Source: Nakamurella leprariae (GTDB lineage Bacteria > Actinomycetota > Actinomycetes > Mycobacteriales > Nakamurellaceae). Taken from it: a DNA stretch of 64,000 bases. The translations under genes and the position numbers were made by a program. The stretch is from contig NZ_JAERWK010000001.1 of assembly GCF_016918035.1 (NCBI RefSeq), positions 1-64,000 on the forward strand, in the 5' to 3' direction. Under the pieces are notes generated by a model. That model had not been told where the DNA came from, searched no databases, and worked only from the letters and a program-made list of their open reading frames with translations. Each line of letters begins with the position of its first letter. Within the stretch, counting starts at the first letter, position 1. Below, piece by piece: positions 4,656 to 23,636 of this stretch.

Positions 4656-5645
4656 CTACTCGCGCGCCGAGGACACGGAGCCCGGTTGAGCCGAACGGTG
4701 ACCACGGACCTGGACCGCCAGAGCGTCGAGTCGGGCGACGAGGTCGTCCGACAGCTCGACGTCCAGGCCACCGAGGTTCTCGGTGACCCGCTCGGGGTAG
4801 CGGGTGCCGGGGATGGACACCGCGGGCAGCCCCAGCCGGCGTCCCTTGTCGTAGAACCAGGCCAGGGCCAACTGGGCACCGGTCAGGTCGGCGTCCCGGG
4901 CGATGGCCAGGAACTCGTCCAGGACGGGCTGGTTGTAGGCCAGGTTGGTCCGGTTGTACCGGGTGATGTTGAACCGGACGTCGCCGGCGACGAACTCGTC
5001 GGCGTCGAGCAGGCCGGTCAGCCACTTCCGCCCGAGCGTGGAGTAGGAGACGAATCCCACGCCGTGCTCTGTGGCGGCCGGGACGACCCAACGCTCGACG
5101 TCCCGCGACACCACGCTCCACTCCGACTGGATGGCGGCGATCGGGTGAACCGTGACGGCGCGGCGGATCTCGTCGCCGGTGGCTTCGGACAGCCCGATGT
5201 GCAGGACCTTGCCCTCGTCGATCAGTTCCTTGATCGCGCCGACCGTCTCTTCGATGGGGACGGCGGGATCGACCCGATGCTGGTAGTACAGATCGATGCG
5301 GTCGGTGCCCAGCCGCGCCAAGCTCAGTTCGACCTGTTCGCGGACGTACTCGCGGTCGCCGCGAACCCCTCGCTGACTCGGCCCGAGGTTCTTGACGATC
5401 CCGAATTTCGTGGCGAGCTGGATCTCGTCGCGGCGGGTCTTCAACAGCTTCCCGATGGTGATCTCACTTCGGCCGTCCCCGTAGCCGTTCGCGGTGTCGA
5501 GGAGGGTGATGCCACTGTCCACAGCGTGGTGCAGGGTCCGCAGCGCATCGGAGTCGCTGACCGGGCCGTACATGTCGGTCAGCGACATGCCACCGAAGCC
5601 GAGCGCTGAGACCGTCAGGCCGTCGCCGAGTTCTGTCGTGATCAC
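4656..5645 (-). CDS. Aldo/keto reductase
   Basis: The 329-residue protein has the AKR barrel layout: LGFGGMSLTDMYGPVSD near the start, DTANGYGDGRSE with the catalytic Asp and Tyr, ATKFGIVKNLG with the Lys, and a VDLYYQHRVD-like strand (RIDLYYQHRVDPAVP) with the His. Enzymes of this family reduce carbonyls with NADPH in the cytoplasm. The GTG start at 5645 has GGGAGGGA 5-7 bases upstream; the frame stays open further upstream but lacks a better site. It lies 136 bases downstream of the last monooxygenase gene on the same strand, so it may be read with that operon. It could reduce an aldehyde released by the monooxygenases, which is an inference from position only. Confidence 0.85.
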   Translation of the reverse strand: MITTELGDGLTVSALGFGGMSLTDMYGPVSDSDALRTLHHAVDSGITLLDTANGYGDGRSEITIGKLLKTRRDEIQLATKFGIVKNLGPSQRGVRGDREYVREQVELSLARLGTDRIDLYYQHRVDPAVPIEETVGAIKELIDEGKVLHIGLSEATGDEIRRAVTVHPIAAIQSEWSVVSRDVERWVVPAATEHGVGFVSYSTLGRKWLTGLLDADEFVAGDVRFNITRYNRTNLAYNQPVLDEFLAIARDADLTGAQLALAWFYDKGRRLGLPAVSIPGTRYPERVTENLGGLDVELSDDLVARLDALAVQVRGHRSAQPGSVSSARE

Positions 5646-5781: not shown

Positions 5782-7167
5782 TCACCGATCGGCAGCGGTG
5801 TCGGCTGACCTGCTGTCGGGAACGAGCGCCGATGAGCCCGACCAGGTGCCGGGCGGGGTCGGCAGGCCCAGGTTCTCCCTGAGGGTGGCTCCTCGGTACT
5901 CGGTGCGATGGGAGCCACGTTCCTGCAGGAGCGGGACGACCTCGTCGACGAAGCGGTCCAGCCCAGTGGGCGTCAGGTGCGGAACCAGGACGAATCCGTC
6001 GGCGGCGTCCTGCTGGACGAAGCGATCCAGTTCGTCGGCCACGGTGGCCGCGGAGCCGACGAAACACTGCCGCTCCGTGACCGCGATCACCAGTTCGCGG
6101 GTCGACAGCTGTCGCGTCTCGGCCAGTTCACGCCACTGTCTGGCCGTTGCCGCTCGGTCCTGGATGAGAGATCGGACGCTGGAACGTCCCTGGGTGATCA
6201 GCCCTTCAAGATCGGTGTCCACGGGGTCGATGGTCGGTAGCGGACCGTCCGGATCGTGGCCGGACAGGTCGGTGTTCCACAGCTGTTCCAGGAACGCCAC
6301 CGCGGTGGCCGGTGACACCTGGGCGAGCCGGACCTCGCGGTAGATCTCCCTGGCCTCATGGTCGTCGTCCCCCAGCACGACCGACGCCGACGGCAGAATG
6401 AGCAGATCGGACCATGCTCGTCCGTACTTGACCAGGCGGGACTTGACGTCATGGTAGAACGCCCGTCCGTCGTCGAACTTGGCGTGTCGGGAGAAAATGA
6501 TGTCGGCCGACGACGCGGCGAACTCACGCCCTTCGTCGGACTGGCCGGCCTGGATGATGACGGGTCTGCCCTGAGGGCTGGGTGGGACGTTGAACTGTCC
6601 GCTGATGTCGAAGTGTCGGTTCTGGATCTGGAACCGCCCGGGCTCGCAGCCGGCGTCGGTCCACGACTGCCACAGGGTGACCGCCGCCTCGAGGAAGTTC
6701 TTGGCCCTCAGGTAACGCTCGTCGTGCGGCAAGTAACCGCCGCGACGGAAGTTCTCGCCGGTGAAGGCGTCCCAGCTGGTGACGATGTTCCACGCCGCGC
6801 GACCGTCGGACAGGTGGTCCAGCGTGGCGAGCTGCCGCGCCAGCTCGTACGGCTCGTGGTAGGTGGAGTTCACGGTCGCGGCCAGTCCCAGGTGTTCGGT
6901 CACCCCGGCGACGGCGGCCAACATGGTGAGGTTGTCCGGACGGCCGACCACGTCCAGGTCGTAGATCCGTCCGGCGTGCTCCCGCAGTCGCAGACCTTCG
7001 GCCAGGAACAGGAAGTCGAATCGGCCACGCTCCGCGGTCTGGGCCAGGTGCCGGAAGGAGGCGAAGTCGATCTGGCTGCCCGAGGCGGGGTCGGTCCACA
7101 CGGTGGTGTTGTTCACTCCGGGGAAGTGGGCCGCCAGATGGATCTGCTTGCGGGGGGAATCGGTCAT
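5782..7167 (-). CDS. NtaA/SnaA/DmoA-family FMN-dependent monooxygenase (copy 1)
   Basis: The 461-residue luciferase-fold protein matches the NtaA/SnaA/DmoA group: LAEGLRLREHAGRIYDLD, LGLAATVNSTYHEPYELAR, WNIVTSWDAFTGENFRRGG and PPSPQGRPVIIQAGQSDEG. Members use FMNH2 from a separate reductase and O2 to cleave C-N or C-S bonds (nitrilotriacetate, dimethyl sulfide, N-acetyl-S-alkylcysteines). The start ATG at 7167 overlaps the stop of the upstream acetyltransferase gene by 4 bases (ATGA), which indicates translational coupling. It is the last gene of the tightly packed operon. A proline/serine-rich tail of about 20 residues follows the family's usual end (REHLALP-like motif LRENLGLPTPP). Its exact substrate is not readable from sequence. 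Confidence 0.85.
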   Translation of the reverse strand: MTDSPRKQIHLAAHFPGVNNTTVWTDPASGSQIDFASFRHLAQTAERGRFDFLFLAEGLRLREHAGRIYDLDVVGRPDNLTMLAAVAGVTEHLGLAATVNSTYHEPYELARQLATLDHLSDGRAAWNIVTSWDAFTGENFRRGGYLPHDERYLRAKNFLEAAVTLWQSWTDAGCEPGRFQIQNRHFDISGQFNVPPSPQGRPVIIQAGQSDEGREFAASSADIIFSRHAKFDDGRAFYHDVKSRLVKYGRAWSDLLILPSASVVLGDDDHEAREIYREVRLAQVSPATAVAFLEQLWNTDLSGHDPDGPLPTIDPVDTDLEGLITQGRSSVRSLIQDRAATARQWRELAETRQLSTRELVIAVTERQCFVGSAATVADELDRFVQQDAADGFVLVPHLTPTGLDRFVDEVVPLLQERGSHRTEYRGATLRENLGLPTPPGTWSGSSALVPDSRSADTAADR

Positions 7168-7877
7168 CGGGGTGCTCCCGGGGGACGCAGTCGCAGGTGT
7201 CGGGTGGTGATTCGGCGCCGGAACCCGAGGTTCTCGTACACTCGGATCGCGGTCACGTTGTCGGCGGAGGCGTGCAGGAACGGCTGTTCGCCCCGCTCGC
7301 GGATGCCGAGCACCAGCGCCAGGACGAGCCGCGTGGCCAGCCCACGTCCCCGGAAGTCGGGATCGGTGCAGACGGCGCTGATCTCCGTCCAGCCGGTCGG
7401 CCGGAGTCGTTCGCCCGCCATCGCGATGAGCCGACCCTCCGCCCGGATGCCGAGATAGGTGCCGAGTTCCGGTGTCCGGGGTCGCCAGGGGCCGGGTCGG
7501 GTGCGGTCGACCAGCTCGGCCATCGCTGCGGCATCATCCATCCCCAGCCGGGCGATGTCCGGGTCGTCGGCGCCGTGCACCTGGTCGCCCACCAGTTGCA
7601 CACCGTCGAGCGCCCGCACCACCGGCCAGCCGTCCGGAGCCACCACCGCCGGGCCGCTGATCGAGATCTCCTGCCCGACGGCCACCAGGTCGGCCAGGTC
7701 GGCCCACGCCGCCGGATCGGACGGGTCGTCCACCGCCCCGAAGCCGGCGCGGTCATCCGGATACCGCCGGGCTCGGCGGCGACCGATGGCCAGGGCCGCG
7801 TGGCCTCCGGTCAAGGAGTGCCAGCTGGCGTTGTCGAGCACATCGGTCTGCAGGTCACCGGGCGTGGTGGTGCTCAT
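7164..7877 (-). CDS. GNAT-family N-acetyltransferase
   Basis: The 237-residue protein has a C-terminal GNAT domain with the acetyl-CoA loop in DPDFRGRGLATRLVLALV, preceded by EGRLIAMAGERL and followed by ASADNVTAIRVYENLGFRR, the classical end of the fold. The N-terminal 100 residues form a second, more divergent half, as in tandem FR47/GCN5-like proteins. Both ends overlap neighbouring genes by 4 bases (ATGA), so it belongs to the operon. In Bacillus the comparable SnaA/SnaB enzymes N-acetylate S-alkyl or S-succinyl cysteine before a flavin monooxygenase attacks the thioether. The same role is plausible here but not proven. Confidence 0.8.
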   Translation of the reverse strand: MSTTTPGDLQTDVLDNASWHSLTGGHAALAIGRRRARRYPDDRAGFGAVDDPSDPAAWADLADLVAVGQEISISGPAVVAPDGWPVVRALDGVQLVGDQVHGADDPDIARLGMDDAAAMAELVDRTRPGPWRPRTPELGTYLGIRAEGRLIAMAGERLRPTGWTEISAVCTDPDFRGRGLATRLVLALVLGIRERGEQPFLHASADNVTAIRVYENLGFRRRITTRHLRLRPPGAPR

Positions 7878-9232
7878 GACGCCGCTCCGGCCGGCGCGGG
7901 CAGTGCGAGATGCTCGCGCAGGGTGGACCCGGTGTAGGCACTGCGGTACACCCCGCGCTCCTGCAACTCCGGCACCAGCAGGTTGACCACGTCCTCCAGG
8001 GAGGACGGGATGGTGTGCGGGCCCAGGTTGAAGCCGTCGGCGGCCCGGGTCCGGACGTAGTGGGCGAATTGGTCGGCGACCCGGCCCGGAGTCCCCACGA
8101 AGGGAGCACGCCGGGTCCCGACCTCCCGGGCCAGTTGCACGATCGACAAGCGGCGTTCGGCCGCCATCGCCCGCCAGGAGGCGATGAGCGCGGTCTTTCC
8201 CGTCCGCCGCTCAGGGGTGATGGTGCCGCGGGACGGGTCGAGCTCGTCCGGGGACGGCTCGATGTCCGGGAGCGGACCGTGGGGGTCGTAGCCGGACAGG
8301 TCGGTGCCCCAGAACTGTTCGAAGAAGGCGAGCGCCCGCGGCGGCGACATCTGCTGCTCGAGCACCCACCGCGCCTTGTCCGTGGCCTCGGCCTCGGTCG
8401 CGCCCAGGATCACGGTGGCGCCGGGCAGGATGCGCACCGAATCCACGCTCCGGCCGCAGGCCCGCAGGCGGGTCCGGAGATCCTTGGCGTAGCTGACCGC
8501 ACTGTCGAACTCCGTGTTCAACGAATAGACGACGTCGGCGTGGGCGGCCGCGAGGTCACGGCCGCCGCTGGAGTCGCCGGACTGGAACAGCACCGGACGA
8601 CCTTGCGGGCTGGGGGGGACGGTGGCTCGCGCCGTGGTCCGGACCAGCTCCGAGTGCGCCTCGACCGGAACGTCCGCGCCCCAGGACTGCCACAGCGCTG
8701 TGGCGGTCGCGGCGAATGCGGCGGCGCGCTCGTAGCGACGCTCGTGCGGGAGCCATGCGCCGGCCCGGAAATTCGCCCCGGTCCAGGCGTTGTCGGTGGT
8801 GACGATGTTCCAGCCGGCCCGACCGCCGGAGAGCAGATCCAACCCGGCCAGTCGCCGGCTCAGCTCGGCGGGGTGGTTGTAGGTGGCGTTCTGGGTGGCC
8901 ACCAACCCGATCCGGTGGGTGACCGAGGCCAGCGCGGACAGTTGGGTGATCGCATCGGGACGTCCGGAGGGGTCGAGGTCGTGGATGCGGCCCCGGTTCT
9001 CGCGAACGCGCTGACCGTCGCCCAGGAAGAAGGCGTCGAAGAGCCCGCGCTCGAGCAACTGCACGATCCGCAAGTAGGTGCTGACCGCGGTGTGGTCGAG
9101 TCCGTCCGGATCGGACCACACCAGTTGGGGTCCGACGCCGGTGTAGAAGACCCCGAGGTGGACCTGGGCAACGACGTCGTAGGCGGCGCCGGTGTCCGGT
9201 CGTCGGTCCAGGTCGACGGCAAGGGCGGTCAT
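7874..9232 (-). CDS. NtaA/SnaA/DmoA-family FMN-dependent monooxygenase (copy 2)
   Basis: The 452-residue protein has the family motifs LGDGQRVRENRGRIHDLDP, GLVATQNATYNHPAELSRR, GWNIVTTDNAWTGANFRAG and PPSPQGRPVLFQSGDSSGG. It should act as a two-component flavin monooxygenase taking FMNH2 from a diffusible reductase; no reductase gene is in this cluster. It is encoded 13 bases after the small luciferase-like gene and overlaps the acetyltransferase gene by 4 bases. It shares the overall plan of the 5782 and 12078 copies but differs across the whole length, so the three are old paralogues that probably take different substrates. Confidence 0.85.
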   Translation of the reverse strand: MTALAVDLDRRPDTGAAYDVVAQVHLGVFYTGVGPQLVWSDPDGLDHTAVSTYLRIVQLLERGLFDAFFLGDGQRVRENRGRIHDLDPSGRPDAITQLSALASVTHRIGLVATQNATYNHPAELSRRLAGLDLLSGGRAGWNIVTTDNAWTGANFRAGAWLPHERRYERAAAFAATATALWQSWGADVPVEAHSELVRTTARATVPPSPQGRPVLFQSGDSSGGRDLAAAHADVVYSLNTEFDSAVSYAKDLRTRLRACGRSVDSVRILPGATVILGATEAEATDKARWVLEQQMSPPRALAFFEQFWGTDLSGYDPHGPLPDIEPSPDELDPSRGTITPERRTGKTALIASWRAMAAERRLSIVQLAREVGTRRAPFVGTPGRVADQFAHYVRTRAADGFNLGPHTIPSSLEDVVNLLVPELQERGVYRSAYTGSTLREHLALPAPAGAAS

Positions 9233-9245: not shown

Positions 9246-10181
9246 TCATCGGGTCGAGAAGTGGTTGACCGGGCGGCCCAGGCCCAGGGTGGAGCGCAGC
9301 GTGGCGCCGGCCGCGGGGGGCCGGAACAACGCCAGGTCGATCAGCGCGGGCAGCACCCGATCGGCCAGCACCGGGAGGTCGTGGGGCAGCGAGCGGGGGC
9401 GCAGCAGCACGCCCGAAGCACCCCCGGCGGTGATCTCACGGATCAGGCTGACCAGTTCGTCGGCCCCGGGGACCTCCGCGAGGTCGATGCGGGCCAGCGG
9501 CAACGCCGCGTGCTGACGCACCTGCCGGCTCCGGTCGGCGAAGGTGGTGCTGTCGAGATCGTCCAGCAGCACCAGGTCGGCCTGGGCATCGAGCCGGTGA
9601 CGCTCCTCGACGAGGACCACGATCTGACCCTGCGGAGATCGCTGCGTGATCAGGGGTCCCACCACGGAGAACGTCGATCCGACGAAGTTCACGTGGTGGA
9701 CCCGGTCGGCGTCCAGGTACCGCCCGCTGGCGGTGTCCCGGATGGCCGCGTCGTCCTCCCACGAGTCCCAGAGCAGCCGGGCGACCTGGACGACCTCCGA
9801 GAGCTCGGTGTGCAGCTCCGCCTGGGTCCGGGGGGTCGTCCCGATGGTGGCCAGCGCCGCGGGGTCGTTGACCGCTCCGACCCACCAGCCGGCCCGGCCC
9901 GCGCTGAGGTGGTCCAGGGTGCTGAGCTGGGTGCTGAGGTGGAACGGCTCGGTGGTGGTCACTTGCAGCTGGGGGACGAGCCCCAGCCGGTCGGTGTGCA
10001 GCGCCACGAACGCCGCCCGGGTGCCCGCCTCCACCAGCGGGGTCCCGTCGTCGGCGGGCAGTGGCGAGTCGGTGAAGGTGACGAAGCTGAACCCCGCCGC
10101 CTCGACCGCGGTGACGGTGTGGATGAGATCAGCGGAGTCCGAGCCGAAGCCGCGCAGGTCGAGCCCGACGGCGAGACTCAT
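9246..10181 (-). CDS. Small luciferase-like (LLM class) flavin oxidoreductase
   Basis: At 311 residues this protein is clearly shorter than the 450-residue monooxygenases beside it. It keeps the luciferase barrel pattern: FSFVTFTDSPLPADDG, LGLVPQLQVTTTEPFHLS, DHLSAGRAGWWVGAV and QRSPQGQIVVLV. It resembles the alkanesulfonate-monooxygenase-type half seen beside NtaA proteins in sulfur-scavenging loci, where it may be a partner or a divergent enzyme. The ATG at 10181 overlaps the aminotransferase stop by 4 bases. The C-terminal LGLGRPVNHFSTR keeps the family ending. Flavin use (FMN or F420) cannot be decided from the sequence. Confidence 0.7.
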   Translation of the reverse strand: MSLAVGLDLRGFGSDSADLIHTVTAVEAAGFSFVTFTDSPLPADDGTPLVEAGTRAAFVALHTDRLGLVPQLQVTTTEPFHLSTQLSTLDHLSAGRAGWWVGAVNDPAALATIGTTPRTQAELHTELSEVVQVARLLWDSWEDDAAIRDTASGRYLDADRVHHVNFVGSTFSVVGPLITQRSPQGQIVVLVEERHRLDAQADLVLLDDLDSTTFADRSRQVRQHAALPLARIDLAEVPGADELVSLIREITAGGASGVLLRPRSLPHDLPVLADRVLPALIDLALFRPPAAGATLRSTLGLGRPVNHFSTR

Positions 10182-11374
10182 CCGTGCACCGCCAGGGCCA
10201 GTCGACGCACCGCCTCCTGCAGTTGGGCGGGAGTGTGATTGCTGTAGGCGATCCGAAGGTGTCGCTCCGACTCCCGCTGCGGCCCGACGGCGAAGAACCC
10301 GCCCTGCTGATAGGCCAACCCGTGGGCGGCCGCGCGCTGGTGCAAGGCGGCGGCGTCGACCGTCGGATCGGTCAGTCGGGGCCACAGGAACAGCCCGCCC
10401 TCCGGCGCGGTGGTACTGAAGGTTCCGGGCAGCTGGGTGTGCAGTGCCTCGATCAGGGTGTGTGACCGCTCGGCGTACAGCAGATTGGCTCGCGCCACCA
10501 CGTCGTCGTACCACCCGGGATGGTCGGTCACCAGGTTCTCGATCAGCGTCTGGGTGACGGTGGGAGTGTGCGAGTCGCCACGATTGCGGAGTTTGACCAC
10601 CGGCGCCACCAGGTGCTCGGGCAGCACCAGCCAGCCCAGCCGCCAACCCGCTCCGAGGGTCTTGGTGAAGGTGTTGACGTGGATCGCCCGGTCGGACTGG
10701 TTGAACGCGGCGACCCCTTGGTCCTGCCCCGCGAAGCGCAGTTCCCGGTAGGGGTTGTCGACGATCAGGTAGAAGCCGAACCGCTCCGCGAGTGCCACCA
10801 GCGCCACCCGCTTCTCGGCGGAGAGGGTCACCTGCGTCGGGTTGTGGAAGTCGGGCACGGTGTAGACCGCCGCGACCTGCTCCCCGGCCCGGAGCCGGGC
10901 CGCCAGGTGATCGACGTCCAGCCCGTCGGCGACCACCGGCACCGGGAGCAGCCGGTCGGTGGAGACCTCCAGAGCGCGGACGAACAGCGGGAACACCGGG
11001 TCGTCCACCGCCACGGTGGCGCCTCGCTCGACGACGGTCAGGACGGCCAGGGACAGGCCGTGCATCCCACCGTTGGTGATGACGATGCGGCGGGCGTCCA
11101 CTCCCTCCCGGCGGGCCAGCCACTCCCGCAGGCCCGGGAAGCCCGGGGTCTGGGTGTAGCGCAGCGCCGCCACACCGGTCTGCCGATCGGTCCACACCGC
11201 GGCGGAGGCCCGGGCGATGTCCTCGATCGGCAGCGCTTCGGCCGCTGCGGTGCCGGCCAGCAGGCGAAGGGTGTCGGGCGGGGCGTCGGCCAGCAGACTG
11301 GCATCGCCGAAGCCCCGGGGGTCGGTCAGGCCTCGGGCCAGGACGGAGAGTCCGTGGGGCTGAGTGAGCGTCAT
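10178..11374 (-). CDS. PLP-dependent aminotransferase class I/II (MocR/2-aminoadipate type)
   Basis: The 398-residue fold type I enzyme has the PLP lysine in TFTKTLGAGWRLGW (Lys238), the DFHNPTQVT motif with Asn178, Asp206 in LIVDNPYRE and the phosphate-binding Arg245. It resembles stand-alone 2-aminoadipate or valine-pyruvate-type transaminases and has no DNA-binding domain, which separates it from MocR regulators. The start at 11374 is 4-base coupled to the aldolase gene. In this operon it could deaminate the amino acid part of an imported compound; a beta-lyase-like reaction is also possible, since the two cannot be told apart by motif. Cytoplasmic. Confidence 0.8.
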   Translation of the reverse strand: MTLTQPHGLSVLARGLTDPRGFGDASLLADAPPDTLRLLAGTAAAEALPIEDIARASAAVWTDRQTGVAALRYTQTPGFPGLREWLARREGVDARRIVITNGGMHGLSLAVLTVVERGATVAVDDPVFPLFVRALEVSTDRLLPVPVVADGLDVDHLAARLRAGEQVAAVYTVPDFHNPTQVTLSAEKRVALVALAERFGFYLIVDNPYRELRFAGQDQGVAAFNQSDRAIHVNTFTKTLGAGWRLGWLVLPEHLVAPVVKLRNRGDSHTPTVTQTLIENLVTDHPGWYDDVVARANLLYAERSHTLIEALHTQLPGTFSTTAPEGGLFLWPRLTDPTVDAAALHQRAAAHGLAYQQGGFFAVGPQRESERHLRIAYSNHTPAQLQEAVRRLALAVHG

Positions 11375-12081
11375 CGGGCGTGCGCCTCCGCATCGGTGAG
11401 AACGTTCTCGAAGTGGCCCGCGGCCACCTCGGGGGTGAGCGTCCAGTGACGCTCCCAGTGCTCGTCCAGCAGGTGGATGCCGTCGACCCCCAGCAGGGCG
11501 AGGTTGGCTTCGGCGGCGCGTTCGGCGGCGCACAGGTAGAAGGCGGCCTCGGCCACCGACCCACCGACCGTCCAGAAGCCGTGGTTGCGTCGCAGCAACA
11601 CCCGCGCTCCGCGCTGGACCAGTTCCACCGGGGTGGGGTCGGTGCTCACCCCGACGTTGCGGGCCGTCAGGCCCTGCAGCCGCGTGATCAGCGCACTGTC
11701 GGTGGTCACCGGCAGCAGCGGCCGTCCCAGCGCCGACCAGGCGAAGCCGCGGGGGGTGTGCAGGTGGATGGCCACCGCGGCCTCGGGAACCTGCTGGTGC
11801 AAGGTGAGATTGCCGGTGAAGCCGTTGATGCGGTGCGAGTTCCGCGGCTCGACGACCGCGCCGTCACCGTCGACCAGGACCAGGTCCTGCGGCGTGATCG
11901 AGCGGATGGAGACGCCGAACGGATTGACCCAGTACAGGTCTGGATCCTCGGGCACCCGGGCCGAGACGTGACCGTTGAACCCGAATTCCCAACCCTGGGC
12001 GCCGAAGAACCGCAGCGCGGTGGCCAGTTCCCAACGCACGTCCCGCACGGCGGTCACCGCCGGGACCGCACCGGGGCTCAC
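11371..12081 (-). CDS. Class II aldolase/adducin-family protein
   Basis: The 236-residue protein has the class II aldolase layout: FGFNGHVSARVPEDPDLYWV, the zinc pair in VAIHLHTPRGFAWSALG and a third histidine in LLRRNHGFWTVG. Relatives include fuculose-phosphate aldolase, methylthioribulose-1-phosphate dehydratase (MtnB) and hydroxyacid decarboxylase-like proteins. Methylthioribulose dehydratase belongs to sulfur salvage, so a related role is attractive here, but no other methionine-salvage gene is present. It is coupled by 4-base overlaps to the monooxygenase gene before it and the aminotransferase gene after it. The substrate remains open. Confidence 0.75.
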   Translation of the reverse strand: MSPGAVPAVTAVRDVRWELATALRFFGAQGWEFGFNGHVSARVPEDPDLYWVNPFGVSIRSITPQDLVLVDGDGAVVEPRNSHRINGFTGNLTLHQQVPEAAVAIHLHTPRGFAWSALGRPLLPVTTDSALITRLQGLTARNVGVSTDPTPVELVQRGARVLLRRNHGFWTVGGSVAEAAFYLCAAERAAEANLALLGVDGIHLLDEHWERHWTLTPEVAAGHFENVLTDAEAHAR

Positions 12082-13451
12082 GCGCGACTCCCCGCGGTCC
12101 GGGCGGCGACGGAGCGATCCTGCGCGGGGCGCGGCAGGCCCAGGTTGTCGCGGAACGTGCCGTCGACGTACTCGGTCCGGAACAGTCCGCGCCGCTGCAG
12201 CTCCGGCACCAGCTCGGTGGTCAGCTGCCGGAACCCGCCCGGCTGGTAGACCGGGAGCAGGTTGAAGCCGTCGGCGGCGCCGTGGTGGAAGCGGAACGCG
12301 ATCTGGTCGGCGACCTGCTCGACGGACCCGACCGGGGACCAGTGGCCACCGCCGGCGACGACGAATTCGATGAGCTGACGCAGCGTGTACCGCTCCACCA
12401 GCGCCAGCTGGCGAAAGATCTTGAACCGCGACTGCACCATGTTGACCGCGCCCACGTCCGGCAGGAGTTCGGCCGGGATGTGCTCGTCGAGATCGAGGTG
12501 GGCGATGGAGGTGCCGCCCAGCATGAACTCGACCTGGGCTCGGGACCGTTCGTGGTCCAGGTACTCCAGCAGCTCACGGGCCCGGCGCCGGGCCTCCTGC
12601 TCGGTGCCCCCCAGCGTCGGCGAACAGCCGGGCAGGATCTTGACGTGGTCCGGGTTGCGCCCCATAGACGCCGCGCGGGCCTTGACGTCGGCGTAGAACT
12701 CCTGCCCTTCCGCCACGGTCGGCGTGGCCGTGTAGATGATGTCGGCGAAACGGGCACCGACCGTCCGACCGGGACCGGACGCGCCGGCCTGGGCGAGGAC
12801 GGGATGCCCCTGGGGTGAGCGTGGCAGGTTGAGCGGACCTCGGACGGAGAAGTACTCACCGTCGTAGGTGTCGGCGTGCACCTTGCTGGGATCTCCGAAC
12901 ACGCCGGTGCTGCGGTCGATGACCAGGGCGTCCTCGTCCCAGCTGTCCCAGAACATGCGGACGATCTCGAGGAACTCGGTGGCCCGCTCGTAGCGCAGAT
13001 CATGTTCGAGCAGCGGCGCCGGGCCGAAGTGCTCGGCGCCGCCGAACGAGGTGACGATGTTCCAGCCGACCCGGCCGCTGGTGAGGTGGTCGAGCGAGGC
13101 CAGCTGTCGCGCCAGCGTGTGCGGGTGGTTGAAGGTGGTGGACATCGACGGGATGAGACCGATGTTCGTCGTGCGGCCGCCGAGGACCGCCAGCACGGTC
13201 AGGGCCTCCAGGTAGCGCAACGGACGGGTGGGGAAGCGTCCTTCGTCGTGGGTCGGGCCGTCGGCGATGAACAGGTGGTGCAGGTTCGCCTCCTCGGCCC
13301 AGCGGGCCTGGTCGGCGAACAACGAGAGCGAATACGCCTCCTCGACCCGACTGTCGGGCAACCGCCAGGCGGCCGGGTGACTGCCGCCACCGTTGATCAA
13401 TGCGCCGAGGATCAGCTGACGGGGGTGACTCGGTTCGGACGGCACGGACAT
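12078..13451 (-). CDS. NtaA/SnaA/DmoA-family FMN-dependent monooxygenase (copy 3)
   Basis: The 457-residue protein contains FIADGPTHDEGRFPTRPL, IGLIPSMSTTFNHPHTLAR, GRVGWNIVTSFGGAEHFGP and LPRSPQGHPVLAQAGASGP, and fits the NtaA/SnaA/DmoA monooxygenases. The ATG at 13451 has GAAGGAGACCC just upstream, the clearest ribosome binding site in the operon. It is the first enzyme gene after the transporter and is separated from the receptor gene by a 12-bp stem-loop (13471-13500). That position lets it be expressed at a level different from the receptor. Its active-site substrate residues differ from the other two copies. Confidence 0.85.
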   Translation of the reverse strand: MSVPSEPSHPRQLILGALINGGGSHPAAWRLPDSRVEEAYSLSLFADQARWAEEANLHHLFIADGPTHDEGRFPTRPLRYLEALTVLAVLGGRTTNIGLIPSMSTTFNHPHTLARQLASLDHLTSGRVGWNIVTSFGGAEHFGPAPLLEHDLRYERATEFLEIVRMFWDSWDEDALVIDRSTGVFGDPSKVHADTYDGEYFSVRGPLNLPRSPQGHPVLAQAGASGPGRTVGARFADIIYTATPTVAEGQEFYADVKARAASMGRNPDHVKILPGCSPTLGGTEQEARRRARELLEYLDHERSRAQVEFMLGGTSIAHLDLDEHIPAELLPDVGAVNMVQSRFKIFRQLALVERYTLRQLIEFVVAGGGHWSPVGSVEQVADQIAFRFHHGAADGFNLLPVYQPGGFRQLTTELVPELQRRGLFRTEYVDGTFRDNLGLPRPAQDRSVAARTAGSRA

Positions 13452-13517: not shown

Positions 13518-15107
13518 TCAGGCCCGGCCGACCTCGTAGGCGTACAGGTAGCGGAAGGCGCGCGGCTCCCAGGTCACCGACTTCGAGACGACCCCGGTGA
13601 ACGGGGATGCGTACAGGAAGACCGTGTGCGCCTCGTCGTGGTACACCCGCAGCGCCTCGTTGATCGCCGTCTGACGTTCCTCCCAGGTGGTCGCCTTCAG
13701 CGCCTGGTCGTAGAACGCGTCGTAGTTGGGTGCGTCCACGTGGCCCTGGATGTGGGTCGAGGTGAACGGTCCGAGCTTGCCGTTCAGGTCGGTCGGTGAC
13801 GACCCGCCCCAGTTGATGTAGACCAGGTCGGAGGCCTGGTCGTCGTCGCCCTGCTGTCGCTCGACCCAGGCGGGGAAGGGCGTGACGGTGAGCGTGAGCG
13901 TGATGCCGACCTCGGCCCACTGGGCAGCGATGGCCTGGGCGGCGGCCTCGGCGGCCACGTAGGTGCCGGACGGAACGTCCAGCTCGAGCTGCAGTCCGTC
14001 GGAGTATCCCGCTTCCGACAGCAGCTCTCGCGCCTTCGTGGGGTCGTACGGGTACGCTGACAGGTCCGGGTTCTGTTCCCCGTACGGCTCGAACAGCACC
14101 TGCCCGGGCAGCGGAACCACCGCCGACTTCAGCAGCGCATCGATGATCGACTGCTTGTCGGTGGCGTAGTTCAACGCCTGGCGCACCGTGGCCTCGGCCA
14201 GCGGGCTCCCCGACTTGCGCTCGTTGATGGCCAGCACGAACGGCTGCGCGCCCTGCTCCAGGATGACCGTGGAGTCGTCACCGCCCAGACCGTCGGTGGA
14301 CAGCGGCGCGAGGTTCAGGACGATGTCGACCTCGTGCGCCTGCACGGCCGCGACCCGCTGCGCCTCGGACGCCAGGACGAGGTAGTCGACGGTGTCGAAG
14401 TCCGGTCGGGTACCCGTCCAGTACGGGTTGGCCGACAGGCGGGCGCCGTTCTCCAGGTCGAGGTCATCGAGCACATAGGGGCCGCTGCCCAGCGCGGTCA
14501 GGTCCAGGTTCGCGCCGGACTCGGCGTAGGCGGGGGACACGATGTACAGGTTCCACAGCCGGGACGGGAGGTCGATGGCCGGCGCGGCGAGCGAGAAGGT
14601 CACCGTGTCGTCCGAGGTCGCCGTGACACTCGAGGTGAACTTGCGCAGTGAGGCGCCGGCGGTACCGACATACTCCTTGTCCAGGAGCTTCTCGAAGTTC
14701 CAGGCCACGTCCTGGGCGGTGACCGGGGTGCCGTCGGAGAATGTCGCGTCCGGTCGGATGGTGAAGGTCCAGGTCAGATCGTCGAGCTGTTCCCACGCGG
14801 CGGCCAGGCTCGGGGCCGCTTCGCCGTCGACCGTGACCTTGGTCAGCGCCTCGTAGATCGAGCCGATGATGGACCCCTGGGAATCGGCTGAGCCACCTTT
14901 GTGCGGATGCACGTTGGTGATGGCACGGGTGAGCCCCAGCCGCAGGGTGGGGGCTTCGGACGCCGCCCCGCTGACGCTGGTGGTGCCGTCGGAGGTCGTC
15001 TGGTCGGCGCTGCCACCGCAGGCCGACAAGCTCAGCGTGGCAACGGCGAGGGTGGCGACCAGAGCGCGGAATCGTCCGCGTCGGGGCAGGCGCAGGTGTG
15101 TGTTCAC
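13518..15107 (-). CDS. ABC transporter substrate-binding lipoprotein, family 5 (peptide/opine/nickel type)
   Basis: The 529-residue exported receptor has a signal peptide with arginines RLPRRGRFR, a hydrophobic core and the lipobox LSLSAC, so it is predicted to be anchored outside the membrane by an N-terminal lipid. The mature part follows the DppA/OppA pattern: a GLTRAITNVHPHKG opening, IGSIYEALTKV, then WTFTIRPDATFSDGTPVTA and ARELLSEAGYSDG. The GTG start at 15107 overlaps the ATPase stop by 4 bases (GTGA). Family 5 receptors bind peptides, opines, glutathione or metal chelates. The operon context suggests a sulfur- or nitrogen-containing organic compound. Confidence 0.85.
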   Translation of the reverse strand: MNTHLRLPRRGRFRALVATLAVATLSLSACGGSADQTTSDGTTSVSGAASEAPTLRLGLTRAITNVHPHKGGSADSQGSIIGSIYEALTKVTVDGEAAPSLAAAWEQLDDLTWTFTIRPDATFSDGTPVTAQDVAWNFEKLLDKEYVGTAGASLRKFTSSVTATSDDTVTFSLAAPAIDLPSRLWNLYIVSPAYAESGANLDLTALGSGPYVLDDLDLENGARLSANPYWTGTRPDFDTVDYLVLASEAQRVAAVQAHEVDIVLNLAPLSTDGLGGDDSTVILEQGAQPFVLAINERKSGSPLAEATVRQALNYATDKQSIIDALLKSAVVPLPGQVLFEPYGEQNPDLSAYPYDPTKARELLSEAGYSDGLQLELDVPSGTYVAAEAAAQAIAAQWAEVGITLTLTVTPFPAWVERQQGDDDQASDLVYINWGGSSPTDLNGKLGPFTSTHIQGHVDAPNYDAFYDQALKATTWEERQTAINEALRVYHDEAHTVFLYASPFTGVVSKSVTWEPRAFRYLYAYEVGRA

Positions 15108-16840
15108 GGTCCTTCTTCTCGGGTGGCTGGGTCGACGCCGTCGAGCGCGTCGGTCGGGGCGGGCAGGGTCGACAAGGCCCGTCCGGGCACGGCGTCGACG
15201 AGACTGCGGGTGTAGGGATGCGCGGGCTGTCGCAACACCGTCTCGGTCGGTCCCTGTTCGACGACGGTGCCGCGACGCAGCACGACCAGGTCCTCGCACA
15301 GGTACCGCACCACGGTCAGGTCGTGCGAGATGAACAGGAAGCTGAGAGCCCGCTCCTGCCGCAGCCGTCCGAACAGGGCCAGAACCCTGGCCTGGACGGA
15401 GAGGTCGAGCGCGGAGACCGGTTCGTCCGCCACGATCAACGCCGGATCGCTGGCCAGGGCGCGCGCGATGCCGACCCGCTGGCGCTGACCGCCGGAGAGC
15501 TCCGACGGGAAACGGGTGCGGAACGCCCCGGGCAACTCGACCTCGTCGAGCAACTCCTCGACCCGCCGGTTGACGGTTGCCCTGGCCAGGCCGCTGTGGT
15601 TCAGCTCCAACGGCTCCCGGAGCGTCTGCTGCACCGTCAGCCGAGGATCGAGCGAGCTGTAGGGGTCCTGGAATACGTACTGCACGTCACGTCGCCAGCG
15701 GCGGTGGGCGGCTCGGTCCAGCTCGTCCGGATCCTGGCCCTGGTAGCGGATGGTTCCGGAGTCGAGCCGCTCCAGGCCCACCACGGCACGTGCGAGCGTG
15801 GTCTTGCCCGAACCGGACTCGCCCACCAGACCGATGGCCTGGCCTTGCCGGAGGGTGAGATCGACTCCGTCCAGGGCGGTGAAATGCCGACTGCCGGCCG
15901 GCCCGCGGACCACGAAACTGCGGCGGGCTTGAGTGATCTCCAGGTGCACGGGTGACTCGTCCCGCTCGGCGGACCTCAAACGCAGGGGAGCGAGCCGCTG
16001 CGGCACCGCGGCCAGCAGCCTTCTGGTGTAGTCGTGCCGGGGGGACCGAAGGACCTCGGCCGTGTCCCCCGTCTCCACGATCCGACCCTGGGACATGACC
16101 GAGACGATGCTGGTGCGGTCCGCGATGACCCCGATGTCGTGGCTCACCAACAGGACGCCGATACCGAGATCCGCTCGCAGTTGGTCGATCAGATCGAGCA
16201 CCTGGGCCTGGACGGACACATCCAGGGCGGTGGTCGGCTCGTCGGCGATGAGCAGACCGGGCCGGCGCGCCAGGGCGATGGCGATCATGACCCGCTGATT
16301 GAGCCCACCGGAGAGCTCGTGCGGGTAGGCGCCCAGCGTCTTGACCACGTTGGGGACGCCCACCTGACCGAGCAGGTCGCCGGTCAGTTCTCGGCGCTGT
16401 TGTCGGGAGGTTCCACGGGGAAGCGCTTCCCGGAGCTGGGCGTCGATGCGCAGCCGGGGATTCAACGACGACGTCGGGTTCTGGAAGATGATGCCGACCG
16501 AGCTCGACAGGTGGCGGCGGGCAGCTCGCCGGCCCAGGGGAGCGACGTCGACCCCGTCGACCAAGACCTGTCCACCCCGGATCTGCAGGGCCGCCGGCAA
16601 CAGGTCGGCCGCGGCGAGTGCGGTGAGCGTCTTGCCCGAGCCCGATTCGCCGACCAGGCCGACCATCTCGCCGCGGTGGACGACCAGGGACGCACCGTCG
16701 ACCAGGTTCCGAGTCGCCGCCCCGCCGCCCTGCGGTCTCGGACCGACGACGAGCTCACGGATCTGCAGGACGGTCGGGGCGGGCTCGAGGTCCGGACGAT
16801 GGCCGCGGGCCGCGGTGGCAGCATGCAGGGTTTCGGTCAT
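15104..16840 (-). CDS. ABC transporter double ATPase (DppD-DppF fusion type)
   Basis: The 578-residue protein carries two complete ABC ATPase domains in tandem. Each has Walker A (GESGSGKTLTAL; GESGSGKTTLAR), an ABC signature (LSGGLNQRVMIA; LSGGQRQRVGIA), Walker B (LLIADEPTTALD; LIVADEPVSALD) and a switch His (SHDIGV; SHDLTV). It thus replaces the usual separate DppD and DppF subunits and powers the two permeases encoded upstream. Each domain ends with the oligopeptide-type C-terminal motif (RHDYTRRLLAAVP; AHPYTRSLVDAVP). The start at 16840 is coupled by ATGA to the permease gene. Cytoplasmic face of the membrane. Confidence 0.9.
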   Translation of the reverse strand: MTETLHAATAARGHRPDLEPAPTVLQIRELVVGPRPQGGGAATRNLVDGASLVVHRGEMVGLVGESGSGKTLTALAAADLLPAALQIRGGQVLVDGVDVAPLGRRAARRHLSSSVGIIFQNPTSSLNPRLRIDAQLREALPRGTSRQQRRELTGDLLGQVGVPNVVKTLGAYPHELSGGLNQRVMIAIALARRPGLLIADEPTTALDVSVQAQVLDLIDQLRADLGIGVLLVSHDIGVIADRTSIVSVMSQGRIVETGDTAEVLRSPRHDYTRRLLAAVPQRLAPLRLRSAERDESPVHLEITQARRSFVVRGPAGSRHFTALDGVDLTLRQGQAIGLVGESGSGKTTLARAVVGLERLDSGTIRYQGQDPDELDRAAHRRWRRDVQYVFQDPYSSLDPRLTVQQTLREPLELNHSGLARATVNRRVEELLDEVELPGAFRTRFPSELSGGQRQRVGIARALASDPALIVADEPVSALDLSVQARVLALFGRLRQERALSFLFISHDLTVVRYLCEDLVVLRRGTVVEQGPTETVLRQPAHPYTRSLVDAVPGRALSTLPAPTDALDGVDPATREEGP

Positions 16841-17721
16841 CGTGCACCCTCGGAGTTGCGGGCGCCGCCGAGGTAGCGCTCGGCCAGCCCGTCGCCGAAC
16901 AGCTGCAGGGCCAGCACCGTCAGCACGATGGCCACCCCCGGGGCGGTGGCGACCCACCAGGCTGCGGACAGCGCATCCCGGCCGGAGGCGACCATGGCCC
17001 CCCAGTCGGGGCGCGGCGGCTGCACACCCAACCCCAGGAACCCGAGGCTGGCCTGCAGCATCAAGGCGCTGGATGCACTGAGCGTGAAGGCAACGAAGAA
17101 CAGGGGAGCGACGCTGGGCAGCAGGTGGCGCCGGGCCAGCGCCGACCGACCCGCACCGGCGACGATGGCGGCCTCGATGTATTGCTGCTCCACCACCGTG
17201 CGGGCGTGCCCGCGCAGCACCCGGAAGGTCAGCACCCAGGAGCCGAGCACCAGCACGACGACGATCGGAACGAAGGAGTTGCCGACGAACGCCAGCACGA
17301 CGATGGCCAGCACGATGGTCGGGACCGCCAGCTGCACGTCGGCGATGCGGCTGCACAGGGTGTCGACCCAGCCGCCGAACAGCGCCGACCCCAGGGCCAG
17401 CGCCAGACCGAGCACGGTGGCGATCAAGGCGGCGGTCAGCGAGATGGACAGTGCGGTCCGCCCGCCCCAGATGACGCGGTCCAGCACGTCCCGGCCGACC
17501 TCGTCCAGGCCGAGGGGATGGGCCCTGGACGGCGCGGCCAGGATGCTGGCCAGGTCCTGCTGCAGCGGGTCGCCGGCCAGCAGCGGCGCCAACAGGCTCA
17601 CCCCGACGATGACGACCAGCAGCGCAGCGCCGATCCGACCAGCCCAGCCGATGCTGGGTCGGCGGACGCGAGTGGCGGGACGCTCGTCCAGTTCGGGCAG
17701 GACGGCGGTGGCGGTACTCAT
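16837..17721 (-). CDS. ABC transporter permease, DppC-like
   Basis: The 294-residue membrane protein has about six hydrophobic segments, starting with AALLVVIVGVSLLAPLLAG, and the binding-protein-dependent-transport motif region EAAIVAGAGRSALARRHLL that contacts the ATPase. The periplasmic-type motif HPLGLDEVGRDVLDRVIWG near residue 70 is diagnostic of DppC/OppC subunits. The start at 17721 is ATGA-coupled to the DppB-like gene. It forms the translocation pore together with that protein. Confidence 0.9.
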   Translation of the reverse strand: MSTATAVLPELDERPATRVRRPSIGWAGRIGAALLVVIVGVSLLAPLLAGDPLQQDLASILAAPSRAHPLGLDEVGRDVLDRVIWGGRTALSISLTAALIATVLGLALALGSALFGGWVDTLCSRIADVQLAVPTIVLAIVVLAFVGNSFVPIVVVLVLGSWVLTFRVLRGHARTVVEQQYIEAAIVAGAGRSALARRHLLPSVAPLFFVAFTLSASSALMLQASLGFLGLGVQPPRPDWGAMVASGRDALSAAWWVATAPGVAIVLTVLALQLFGDGLAERYLGGARNSEGAR

Positions 17722-18704
17722 GCGCGCAGCCTCGGTTCGATGAGCACGGACAGGACGTCGACCACCAGGTTGATCAGCACGAAGCCGATGGCGATGATCA
17801 GCACGCACACGATGACCAGTGGGTAGTCACGGTTCTGCACGGCGTTGATGGACAGCTGGCCGATCCCCGGCCAGCCGAACACCGACTCGGTGACCACGGC
17901 GCCGCCCAACAGGACTCCCGCCTGGATGCCGACCACATTGAGCGTCGGACCGACGGCGTTGGCCACCACATGGCGCAGCGCGACCATCGGCCGACTGACT
18001 CCCTTGGCGATCGCGGTTCGGACGTGGTCGGCCCGGAGCGCCTCGAGCAGCGCGGTGCGGAACACTCGGGAGATGGCCGGGACGAAGGCGATGGCCAGGG
18101 TGATGGTCGGCAGGATCATGCCGGTGACACCGCCGGCGCCGCGCCCCATGGTGGGTACCCAGCGCAGGGTGACCGCGAAGACCAGGATGAGCACCATGCC
18201 GACGAAGAAGGTGGGCACGGCGTCCGCGACGGTGGCGATGCTCAACGGAACCCGGCGGAGCCAGGCGTACCGTGCCGTGGCCGCGACGTAGCCGATCAAC
18301 CCGCCGACCAGAACGCCCAGGACGAGACTGGCCGCGCCCAGGAGCAGGCTGGCCGGCACCTTCTGCAGCGCGATGGTGAGCGGATCCTGCCCGTAACGCA
18401 GGGAATCGGGGAAGCTTCCGGTGACGACGTTGCCCAGGAACTTCACGTATTGCACGGGGACGGGCTGGTCGAAGCCGTACAACCGGGTGAGGCGGGCGGT
18501 CTCCTCGGGCGGCGCGTCCGGCGGGACCAGCAGCAGCACCGGGTTGTTCGAGGAGTACAGGGCGAAGAACACGATGGTGATCGCGCCCCAGACGGCGATG
18601 AGTCCCGTCAGCAGACGGCGGACCAGATGTCGGACACCGATGGGTGAACGGAGCTGGCCCGACGGTCGACCGGCGGGTGCCGTGGAGGCCGTGGCGTTCG
18701 ACAC
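17718..18704 (-). CDS. ABC transporter permease, DppB-like
   Basis: The 328-residue membrane protein has the DppB/OppB pattern: VRHLVRRLLTGLIAVWGAI at the first membrane segment, LTRLYGFDQPVPVQYVKFL in the loop, and the ATPase-contact region RTAIAKGVSRPMVALRHVV near residue 225. The GTG at 18704 is preferred because CAAGGATC lies a few bases upstream; another GTG at 18728 and an ATG at 18788 are in frame. It is the first structural gene after the leader peptide and opens the twelve-gene operon. The 200-base leader between them can fold into alternative hairpins. Confidence 0.85.
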   Translation of the reverse strand: MSNATASTAPAGRPSGQLRSPIGVRHLVRRLLTGLIAVWGAITIVFFALYSSNNPVLLLVPPDAPPEETARLTRLYGFDQPVPVQYVKFLGNVVTGSFPDSLRYGQDPLTIALQKVPASLLLGAASLVLGVLVGGLIGYVAATARYAWLRRVPLSIATVADAVPTFFVGMVLILVFAVTLRWVPTMGRGAGGVTGMILPTITLAIAFVPAISRVFRTALLEALRADHVRTAIAKGVSRPMVALRHVVANAVGPTLNVVGIQAGVLLGGAVVTESVFGWPGIGQLSINAVQNRDYPLVIVCVLIIAIGFVLINLVVDVLSVLIEPRLRA

Positions 18705-18840
18705 GGGGATCCTTGCGAGAGGTGTGCTGACGGGGGACCGGCACCGAGGGTGCGCAGGGCGGGCCGAGCCGACGACGAGTCGCCGCAACGACCTGGCCGG
18801 ACACGACGGATACGGGGCACAACAGTGGTGTCAACCGGAA

Positions 18841-18880
18841 GTCCGGACGCCGTCGGGATCGCCGCCCGGACCGGCGCGGC
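18841..18880 (-). promoter_or_regulatory. Alternative stem-loops between leader peptide and permease gene
   Basis: Two mutually exclusive pairings are visible. GCCGC at 18861-18865 can pair with GCGGC at 18876-18880. Alternatively GTCCGG at 18841-18846 can pair with CCGGAC at 18866-18871, which uses bases inside the first hairpin. They lie 25-64 bases downstream of the leader peptide stop on the minus strand. A switch of this kind fits attenuation by ribosome stalling at the leader's Cys codons. There is no clear U-run, so termination might be Rho-dependent, or the control might be translational. Confidence 0.4.
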
Positions 18881-18904
18881 GTGGATCGGCTCAGCTGCGG
18901 CGGA

Positions 18905-19000
18905 TCACCAACGGTGCTGGCAACAGAGACTGCTGGCCGTCTGCAGGAGGTCGACCACACGTCGTCGAGAGGTCAGCAGGCCTCTGGGCTCGTGAGTCAT
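18905..19000 (-). CDS. Cysteine-type regulatory leader peptide (31 codons)
   Basis: A small frame starts at ATG 19000, with GAAAGG 9 bases upstream, and ends at TGA 18905-18907. Its key features are MTHEPRG at the start, TSRRRVVDLL in the middle and SSLCC (Cys26-Cys27) near the end, followed by QHRW. This is the pattern of the short actinobacterial leader peptides found before sulfur-assimilation operons: SRRxVDLL, then one or more cysteines near the C terminus. In mycobacteria, short ORFs with runs of Cys codons act as cysteine-responsive attenuators. It lies 200 bases upstream of the ABC permease gene on the same strand, so the operon is predicted to be induced when cysteine is scarce. The sequence match is direct; the regulatory behaviour is inferred from the family. 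Confidence 0.8.
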   Translation of the reverse strand: MTHEPRGLLTSRRRVVDLLQTASSLCCQHRW

Positions 19001-19422
19001 CGCGTCGTGCCTTTCGTCAGCGCTTGCGTCGCGGGCGCGACGCCGGGTCTCGTTCCGGGGCACCCCATCGCAGTGAAGGGTTGCCGTCCAGCAAGCCGGT
19101 GCTTGTCGCTGGAACTCTTGACCGATCTCGATGCTAGGGCCGTGGTCGCCACCCGGTCAATCCGGGCGACTGCGAGTCCTATCACTGGTCCTCGACACAG
19201 GCGGCGGGGCAAGCTCCGTCGAGTATCGACACATGAAACGTATTGCGAACAGCAGAATGTCATGCAGGCGCGGCCAGCGATCCTCGCTCGCCTCACGCTT
19301 CGCGCCAGTGGATACGTTAGCATCCGAACCAACACATCCAAACTCTGGTGCATACGATAGCAGGGTCGTGGCGGGACACCTAGAGTGGTCGGGACGGCAC
19401 ACAAGAGGAAGAACGTGATGCG
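19001..19422. other. Divergent promoter region between the operon and gntR
   Basis: This 422-base gap holds no gene. It must contain the minus-strand promoter of the leader-permease operon and the plus-strand promoter of the GntR gene. The part nearer the regulator (about 19240-19370) is less GC-rich than its surroundings. It holds TACGAT at 19353-19358, a possible plus-strand -10, inside TGCATACGATAGCA, a weak inverted repeat that could be a GntR site. None of these is strong enough for a firm call. Confidence 0.35.
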
Positions 19423-20106
19423 GTGACCGAGTCCCCGGTGGTGGACCGAACCAGCTCGCCCGGGCTCGAGGGGGCCGCCCCCAGCATCGGTGACCGCACC
19501 TACGCGGAGCTGCGGGCAGCGTTGCTGGCCGGGCGCCATCGGCCGGGAAGCGTGCTGTTGGAGACCGCGATCGCCGCCGAACTGGAGATCTCTCGCACGC
19601 CGGCTCGGGAGGCGCTCGTCCGGCTGACCCAGGACGGCCTGCTGCAGCGTCGCGGCCGCGGGTTCGAGGTCCGCATCCGCACGGTGGACGAGATCGTCGA
19701 CATCTACGACGCCCGCATCGTGCTCGAAGGCTGGGGTGCGGCCACTGCCGCCGAGCGGCGCACCTCCGTCGACCTCGCGCGACTGCACGCGGCCCACGCC
19801 GCGGCCGAGGTCGCCGACACGGCCGCAAACCTCAAGGACACCCACCGTCAGTTCCACCAGGTGCTCAAGCGCTGCTGGCACAACCCGACCCTGGTGGACG
19901 AGACCGATCGACTGCACGCGATGGCCTCGATGGTGCCGCACCACGAGGAGCTGACCGCGAAGGACGCCCGACTGAACTCGGTCGACCACCAACTCATCGT
20001 CGACGCCATCGATGCCAGAGACGCAGAGGCCGCCCGGACAGCCGCCATGAATCATCTCCGCCGTGCACGTGACCGGCGGATCGCCAGGATGGCCGCGACC
20101 GACTGA
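19423..20106 (+). CDS. GntR-family regulator with FCD domain
   Basis: The 227-residue protein has an N-terminal winged helix (residues about 25-85: RTYAELRAALLAGRHRPGS, LAISRTPAREAL-like ISRTPAREALVRL) and a C-terminal FCD domain. The FCD histidines lie in DTHRQFHQVL, VPHHEELTA and SVDHQLIVDAI, which normally hold a metal or a carboxylate ligand. The GTG start at 19423 follows AGAGGAAG with a long spacer. It is divergent from the twelve-gene operon and is the natural candidate for substrate-specific control of it, acting alongside the cysteine leader. The effector is probably an organic acid, as for most FCD proteins. Confidence 0.85.
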   Translation: MTESPVVDRTSSPGLEGAAPSIGDRTYAELRAALLAGRHRPGSVLLETAIAAELEISRTPAREALVRLTQDGLLQRRGRGFEVRIRTVDEIVDIYDARIVLEGWGAATAAERRTSVDLARLHAAHAAAEVADTAANLKDTHRQFHQVLKRCWHNPTLVDETDRLHAMASMVPHHEELTAKDARLNSVDHQLIVDAIDARDAEAARTAAMNHLRRARDRRIARMAATD

Positions 20107-23551: not shown

Positions 23552-23636
23552 GCGGCAGCACGCTACCCCAGACCGGCTCGCCGGCACCCGATGTCGACAG
23601 GCCTGTCGGACCCGCGCAGCGATGGGTAAAGTGACG

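Follow-up and report, generated by a model that had tools for sequence, protein, structure and literature searches.

In the 64,000-nucleotide stretch of Nakamurella leprariae DNA analysed here (the window; contig NZ_JAERWK010000001.1, positions 1 to 64,000), a 31-codon ORF with tandem cysteine codons precedes a twelve-gene operon and lies 14 nt downstream of a SAM-IV riboswitch aptamer. The same leader motif follows SAM-IV aptamers of the genus far above chance. We lean towards the view that the operon 5' leader is a two-sensor RNA, which would allow expression only when SAM and Cys-tRNA are both low. A more specific proposal, made tentatively and with slightly less than even confidence, is that SAM-IV gates the cysteine-sensing leader. 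The cysteine sensor would then work only at low SAM, so that aptamer, translated sensor and operon, acting in this order, would make up a serial NOR gate. The arrangement would belong to a genus-wide dual SAM/cysteine regulon that serves the salvage of organosulfur compounds, and in several actinobacterial families metY-type genes would be preceded by a parallel form with poly-Cys ORFs.

Aptamer, leader ORF and operon of the window

A sequence-only reading of this DNA had reported a 31-codon frame carrying SRRRVVDLL and SSLCC, with no mention of its strand. The frame exists on the minus strand, with its ATG at 19000 and its stop ending at 18905 (the plus strand reads differently there), and both motifs are found in its translation (Table 1). 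The TGT and TGC codons are codons 26 and 27 of 31, placing the cysteines in a row near the stop as in Canestrari-type attenuators. A ribosome binding site is present, although it is modest and not good as had been claimed. Compared with the NCBIfam models, the window peptide scored 13.8 bits with NF042934 (putative leader peptide, cis_reg_atten), under the curated cut-off of 27, and 15.4 bits with NF042933 (Ms5788A leader), under the curated cut-off of 45. The NF042934 cut-off was exceeded at three other places of the same genome.

The SAM-IV aptamer, absent from the sequence-only reading, was aligned by Rfam over the full model, 57 bits above the gathering cut-off and with no non-standard pair marked. 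From the promoter-like site, the RNA start is predicted at about the first aptamer base. Given this predicted start and the 14 nt that separate the aptamer from the leader ATG, aptamer, leader and operon are probably carried on one transcript. The first ORF met after the aptamer is a small one, as in the riboswitch-controlled uORFs of Mycobacterium tuberculosis. Elsewhere in the window, a TPP riboswitch was detected at 23634-23743 of the plus strand (58.2 bits).

Table 1. Features of the operon and of its 5' leader in the window, in order of transcription
Feature	Position	Strand	Basis
Promoter-like site TTGACC-18-TAGCAT	19131..19160	-	Consensus scan, 1 found against a mean of 0.0 in shuffles
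SAM-IV riboswitch aptamer (RF00634), model positions 1-116	19015..19123	-	95.3 bits against a cut-off of 38
AAGG, modest Shine-Dalgarno (SD) of the leader ORF	19010..19013	-	Sequence; 10 nt before the ATG
Cys leader peptide ORF MTHEPRGLLTSRRRVVDLLQTASSLCCQHRW	18905..19000	-	31 codons; translation, family alignment, NF042934/NF042933 matches below cut-off
Tandem Cys codons TGT TGC, predicted stall site	18920..18925	-	Sequence; TGT bias of leaders
200-nt C-rich spacer from leader to first gene, candidate Rho-loading or attenuator region	18705..18904	-	Composition
ABC permease 1 (BPD_transp_1)	17718..18704	-	Pfam 3.8e-31; GTG 18704 with AAGGA
ABC permease 2	16837..17721	-	Pfam 1.8e-22; candidate start
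Double ABC ATPase	15104..16840	-	Pfam ABC_tran, 2 stretches; candidate start
Solute-binding protein, family 5	13518..15107	-	Pfam SBP_bac_5 1.1e-70; candidate start
NtaA/DmoA-family FMN monooxygenase	12078..13451	-	TIGR03860 454 bits; PDB 6ask, 1yw1, E ~4e-86
Class II aldolase-like protein	11371..12081	-	Pfam 1e-30
PLP aminotransferase-like protein	10178..11374	-	Pfam 4.1e-32
Luciferase-like monooxygenase	9246..10181	-	Pfam 3.5e-13; TIGR03860 139.7 bits, below its cut-off
NtaA/DmoA-family monooxygenase	7874..9232	-	TIGR03860 343 bits
GNAT acetyltransferase	7164..7877	-	Pfam FR47 1.3e-23
NtaA/DmoA-family monooxygenase	5782..7167	-	TIGR03860 380 bits
Aldo/keto reductase-like protein, twelfth gene	4656..5645	-	Gap of 136 nt behind gene 11; NF049922 7.2e-40, under cut-off; candidate start

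The leader had been placed 200 bases ahead of the first permease gene of a twelve-gene operon, and both statements are borne out: the permease GTG lies 200 nt past the leader stop on the same strand, and twelve co-directional frames run down to 4656. With gene starts predicted as candidates chosen by SD support, 8 of the 11 junctions are 4-nt overlaps and the remaining three are gaps of 66, 13 and 136 nt. The operon encodes four luciferase-type monooxygenases, three of them above the NtaA/DmoA cut-off, and the solved structures closest to the first are MoxC and YtnJ. In Bacillus subtilis, YtnJ belongs to a sulfur-responsive operon tied to the use of S-alkylcysteine, a context that supports an organosulfur scavenging reading. 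The cluster is probably a sulfur-scavenging system for organosulfur uptake and oxidation. A divergent ORF adjoining the operon (19423-20106, plus strand) resembles by eye a GntR-type regulator.

Recurrence of the aptamer-leader pair

Nine SAM-IV aptamers were identified in the N. leprariae genome and, once oriented, 8 of them are followed by a leader of the form RR..[IV]D...C. The ninth (L009) leads straight into a gene whose product shows, over the part compared, 53% identity to that of a first gene matching aminotransferase class V. In the genus (17 genomes with 79 SAM-IV matches, 77 of them analysed, the two left out both being from G015), an RRxVDL leader was found after 35 of the 77 aptamers. 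As the regular expression was shaped on the leaders of the genome under study, the count without that genome, 27/68, is the fairer one. Reading the same stretches on the reverse strand gave 0/77, and ten shuffles averaged 0.5. In a third control, for which the DNA ahead of the aptamer was read on the opposite strand, the motif did turn up, in 5/36 genus and 0/30 class flanks; the genus cases are in line with the divergent leader arrangements known in the N. leprariae genome. Divergent SAM-IV aptamer pairs, each aptamer with its own Cys leader, were observed at G000:C5:123742-124118 and G000:C26:104279-104649, and at G000:C26:104539-104994 (L010, L218) one SAM-IV aptamer is followed by two serial RR..IDL...C leader ORFs on the same strand. 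A check independent of the regular expression was provided by NF042934, which matched 39 of the 40 leaders scanned at E<=0.05 (one leader under 20 aa was left out).

In the class, SAM-IV was present in at least 114 of 197 genomes, N. leprariae included. Outside the genus, 6 of the 130 aptamers analysed, among the matches listed (at least 11 further listed matches were left out), carry a leader; these belong to five families. The controls gave 0 on the reverse strand and a mean of 1.0, with a maximum of 2, in shuffles. The pairing is optional, since 42 of the 77 genus aptamers have no RRxVDL leader. When, for aptamers lacking such a leader, the criterion was relaxed to any short ORF that has an SD and encodes one Cys or more, the count was 15/42 in the genus (6 on the reverse strand) and 19/124 in the class (12 on the reverse strand), so that single-Cys ORFs alone say little.

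A second leader form was found before metY-type genes, which were recognised by scanning the downstream frames for a protein motif. Among the 166 analysed aptamers without RRxVDL leader, mini-ORFs with poly-Cys (5-17 codons, at least 2 Cys, an SD, 25-60 nt after the aptamer, a rule set after examples had been seen) were detected in 16 of the 42 located before metY-type genes and in 0 of the 124 others, with shuffle means of 0 to 0.15. These 16 comprise 9 of 14 in the genus (L022, L023, L027, L029, L031, L032, L033, L038 and L077) and 7 of 28 in the class (L046, L127, L129, L139, L154, L190 and L195), with peptides such as MCCRMCCRS, MCARMCCRR and MCCCCRMTRR. Taking both forms together, a Cys ORF comes first after 44 of the 77 analysed genus aptamers.

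The leaders bear signs of translation. Over 41 leaders, the codon-position entropy is 0.42, 0.28 and 1.09 at the three positions in the RRxVDL core (0.81, 0.70 and 1.09 over all 14 columns); the variation of the core lies mainly at the third position, as a coding sequence would show. Within the last 18 codons of the genus leaders, the TGT:TGC ratio is 39:22, against 10:90 in the called first genes (p 8e-13), and it remains 30:16 (p 1.4e-11) without the leaders of the N. leprariae genome. UGU, rare in the neighbouring genes, would fit a stall site. With starts picked by SD among in-frame candidates, 33 of the 41 leaders begin 29-49 nt after the aptamer, a region which also holds 57 of the 153 called long-ORF starts after SAM-IV; the window leader, at 14 nt, is an exception. 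Neither leader motif nor long ORF with an SD was found in 13 of 207 flanks.

The two classes of loci differ in their first genes, identified with Pfam on called genes cut to at most 230 aa. After RRxVDL composites, i.e. aptamer-leader pairs, the 38 first genes scanned (none was called in 3 of 41) include 8 luciferase-like monooxygenases, 6 ABC permeases, 2 FMN reductases and 2 cysteine dioxygenases, the remaining families occurring mostly once or twice each. In genus loci with neither leader form, the 32 scanned (none was called in 1 of 33) include 11 aminotransferases class V, 7 Cys/Met-metabolism enzymes, 5 monooxygenases and 3 NlpA lipoproteins. The Cys leader is thus commoner with uptake and oxidation genes, monooxygenases being also found directly after SAM-IV.

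We also analyzed orthologous operons. Within the genus, a search with the permease at E<=1e-60 recovered a paralog (45%) in the same genome and, among the 16 others, a relative (38%) in one. Relatives with 67-69% identity were found in three Pseudonocardia and three Cellulomonas genomes (among the matches listed; nearer relatives may be missing). The three Pseudonocardia loci have a leader with no aptamer before it, uncertain start codons and TGT as last Cys codon; the L238 leader, ...SRRRVIDHGTVNSTSCRSF, shares SRRRV[IV]D with that of the window, and the L239 and L240 leaders read TQRRFID. The three Cellulomonas loci have short Cys-ending ORFs but no RRxVDL, and for lack of this motif their homology to the leader is not established. 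They lie behind a different hairpin/pseudoknot-like element, for which Rfam gave nothing at the gathering threshold (L237, L241, L242) and chance-level matches at E<=10 (L237, L242). By eye, the CTCGG loop of this hairpin (plus strand; L237:9600-9690, L241:9520-9590, L242:9585-9650) could pair with a downstream CCGAG/CCGGG. The element is possibly another ligand-sensing RNA that replaces SAM-IV. A SAM-IV aptamer lies nearby on the opposite strand in L241, and two SAM (RF00162) aptamers are located on the opposite strand near a Pseudonocardia operon (L239:9065-9154 and 5396-5489, minus strand). Across these loci, a Cys leader ORF accompanies the operon and the upstream element changes.

Proposed two-input control and alternative readings

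The steps by which the aptamer would influence the leader, and the leader in turn the operon, are inferred as follows. At high SAM, the bound aptamer would cause the leader ORF to be translated less, and RNA left untranslated would stay closed, most likely through Rho-dependent termination. At low SAM, the leader ORF would be translated. If Cys-tRNA is then plentiful, the ribosome would run off the leader and the spacer would close the RNA again; if it is scarce, a ribosome stalled at UGU-UGC would cover the stop codon along with the first part of the spacer, allowing expression of the operon. Taken together, the two inputs would act as a NOR gate, with either sulfur product turning off the organosulfur uptake and oxidation system, and this logic is predicted whether the output is Rho-dependent termination or translation attenuation.

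Rho-dependent termination is perhaps the likeliest output, favoured by the C-rich spacer together with the finding of no intrinsic terminator in 18650-19450. Relative to 200-nt stretches of the window, the window spacer is at the 98th percentile for C minus G (0.12) and at the 99.9th for YC density. Among 29 composite spacers (12 of the 41 composites were excluded, either for want of a called gene or because the spacer was shorter than 60 nt), 28 exceed the 90th percentile of window stretches for C-richness; the one below is the window's own measured as 116 nt, which reaches the 98th at its true 200 nt. Composite spacers are also richer than the co-directional intergenic DNA of the window (median C minus G 0.154 against 0.06, p 1e-5, n=15). 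The signature is however unspecific, the first 150 nt of called genes being nearly as C-rich (median 0.133, n=53, against 0.154, n=29). Published work points both ways. Mycobacterial cys leaders were predicted in 2005 in a paper whose passages on them report no conserved terminator hairpin and suggest Rho (Seliverstov, PMC1262725). A precedent for control of a uORF by a riboswitch in concert with Rho is the Mbox (PMC12810186). For the Cys leaders of M. smegmatis, the corresponding passages report translation attenuation by SD occlusion, not Rho (PMC13236596). SD occlusion is the sole published Cys-leader mechanism met in the parts of the literature surveyed, which speaks against Rho. In the window, unmasking of the permease SD was not seen by simple folding without pseudoknots or kinetics, its GG being unpaired at <=0.07 whichever 5' end between 19125 and 18895 was tried.

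It is rather unlikely, in our judgement, that the two modules work independently, with SAM-IV acting on the whole transcript (on its stability, or by termination before the leader), the leader acting separately and the aptamer exerting no control on leader translation; the result would still be a two-input gate. Such independence would agree with the occurrence of each element without the other, and with the linkers, in which simple folding of 27 composites of relatives gave no sign that the leader SD is masked (unpaired 0.52, shuffled linkers 0.46, p 0.25; the 14-nt window linker, too short for this test, was not among them). Folded linkers were more stable than shuffles where the aptamer is followed by a direct gene (n=68, p 1e-7) or by a mini-leader (n=16, p 2e-4), not in composites (p 0.41). 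Independence is less easily reconciled with leader starts that cluster where direct targets of SAM-IV do, the window's excepted, or with the finding of no intrinsic terminator between the window aptamer and its leader.

We consider improbable the cysteine-only control which the sequence-only reading had proposed, where the leader would sense Cys-tRNA and SAM-IV would be irrelevant or decayed here. Comparison does support a cysteine-responsive leader of a sulfur operon, through the conserved peptide, the UGU bias, the leader ORFs of orthologous operons and the FMN monooxygenases. Leaders also occur with no aptamer ahead in Pseudonocardia and, on their strand, at two loci of the N. leprariae genome (L216, L217). 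Control by cysteine alone is nevertheless incomplete: a SAM-IV aptamer precedes the leader, well above its cut-off, with no non-standard pair marked and behind the one promoter-like site found, and the pair recurs with strong enrichment.

A termination-reinitiation relay, where the riboswitch would control the uORF and the first gene would be translated by coupling, has a precedent in uPPE2 of M. tuberculosis. It is very improbable here because the leader stop and the permease start are 200 nt apart and the permease has an SD of its own; in the passages describing uPPE2, stop and start overlap (PMC11260477), and the relay would leave the conserved Cys codons unexplained. That the ORF is a chance frame in GC-rich DNA, as the low NCBIfam scores of the window peptide might suggest, is equally improbable and was rejected on the motif enrichment over shuffles and reverse strand, the third-position variation, the UGU bias and the leader ORFs before orthologous operons.

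If the serial NOR gate is correct, cysteine and Met/SAM status would meet on one RNA, with a riboswitch controlling a translated sensor, and many small ORFs would acquire a testable function. The pairing would also flag sulfur-salvage operons with otherwise vague enzymes.

Comparison with known systems

Canestrari's 2020 work reportedly describes cysteine-responsive leader attenuators of mycobacteria, the Ms5788A and Ms4527A families, and terms them leaderless. The window shares with these attenuators a short ORF that lies ahead of sulfur genes and carries Cys codons at the 3' end, and to this extent the analogy drawn by the sequence-only reading stands. It fails at the 5' end: with the RNA start predicted, the window ORF is not leaderless but lies behind a riboswitch aptamer, about 120 nt of predicted structured RNA preceding it. 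The window moreover has one UGU-UGC pair, and its operon is predicted to serve organosulfur uptake and oxidation.

The metE gene of Bacillus clausii is preceded by tandem riboswitches, for SAM and B12, that form a NOR gate. There as here, two metabolites could each shut one operon, the difference being that the second sensor of the window would be a translated leader peptide and not an aptamer.

As a SAM-IV riboswitch (RF00634), the window aptamer is typical in being full-length at the predicted mRNA 5' end, and differs in being followed first by a Cys leader ORF. In passages on SAM-IV, the riboswitch is reported directly before a cysteine desulfurase gene (PMC8079986) and directly before an O-acetylhomoserine sulfhydrylase gene (PMC3774663). 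In the parts of the literature surveyed, the next annotated gene is taken as the SAM-IV target, whereas the genus aptamers often meet a Cys ORF first.

Small ORFs as first targets of riboswitches are reported, in the passages concerned, in M. tuberculosis, where a B12 riboswitch controls the uORF uPPE2 (PMC11260477) and the Mbox riboswitch controls the uORF Rv1805A together with Rho, as a translational platform (reported in 2026, PMC12810186). The main Mbox termination site is placed before the uORF by PMC12810186 itself. The likeness to the window is that a small ORF comes first after the riboswitch; a translational platform acting with Rho, as in Mbox, would be a further likeness under the mechanism proposed here. 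In those passages the uORFs are not described as amino-acid sensors, whereas the window uORF should, as we propose, itself sense a second metabolite.

Cys leaders, SAM-IV and riboswitch-controlled uORFs are thus each already known. No description of SAM-IV followed by a Cys leader was found in the literature searched, including the SAM-IV passages of PMC8079986, PMC3890552, PMC3774663, PMC8269248 and PMC2864571; mention in Canestrari 2020, Weinberg 2008 or D'Halluin 2023 is possible. What appears to be new in comparison with these systems is the placement of a riboswitch ahead of a leader predicted to sense an amino acid.
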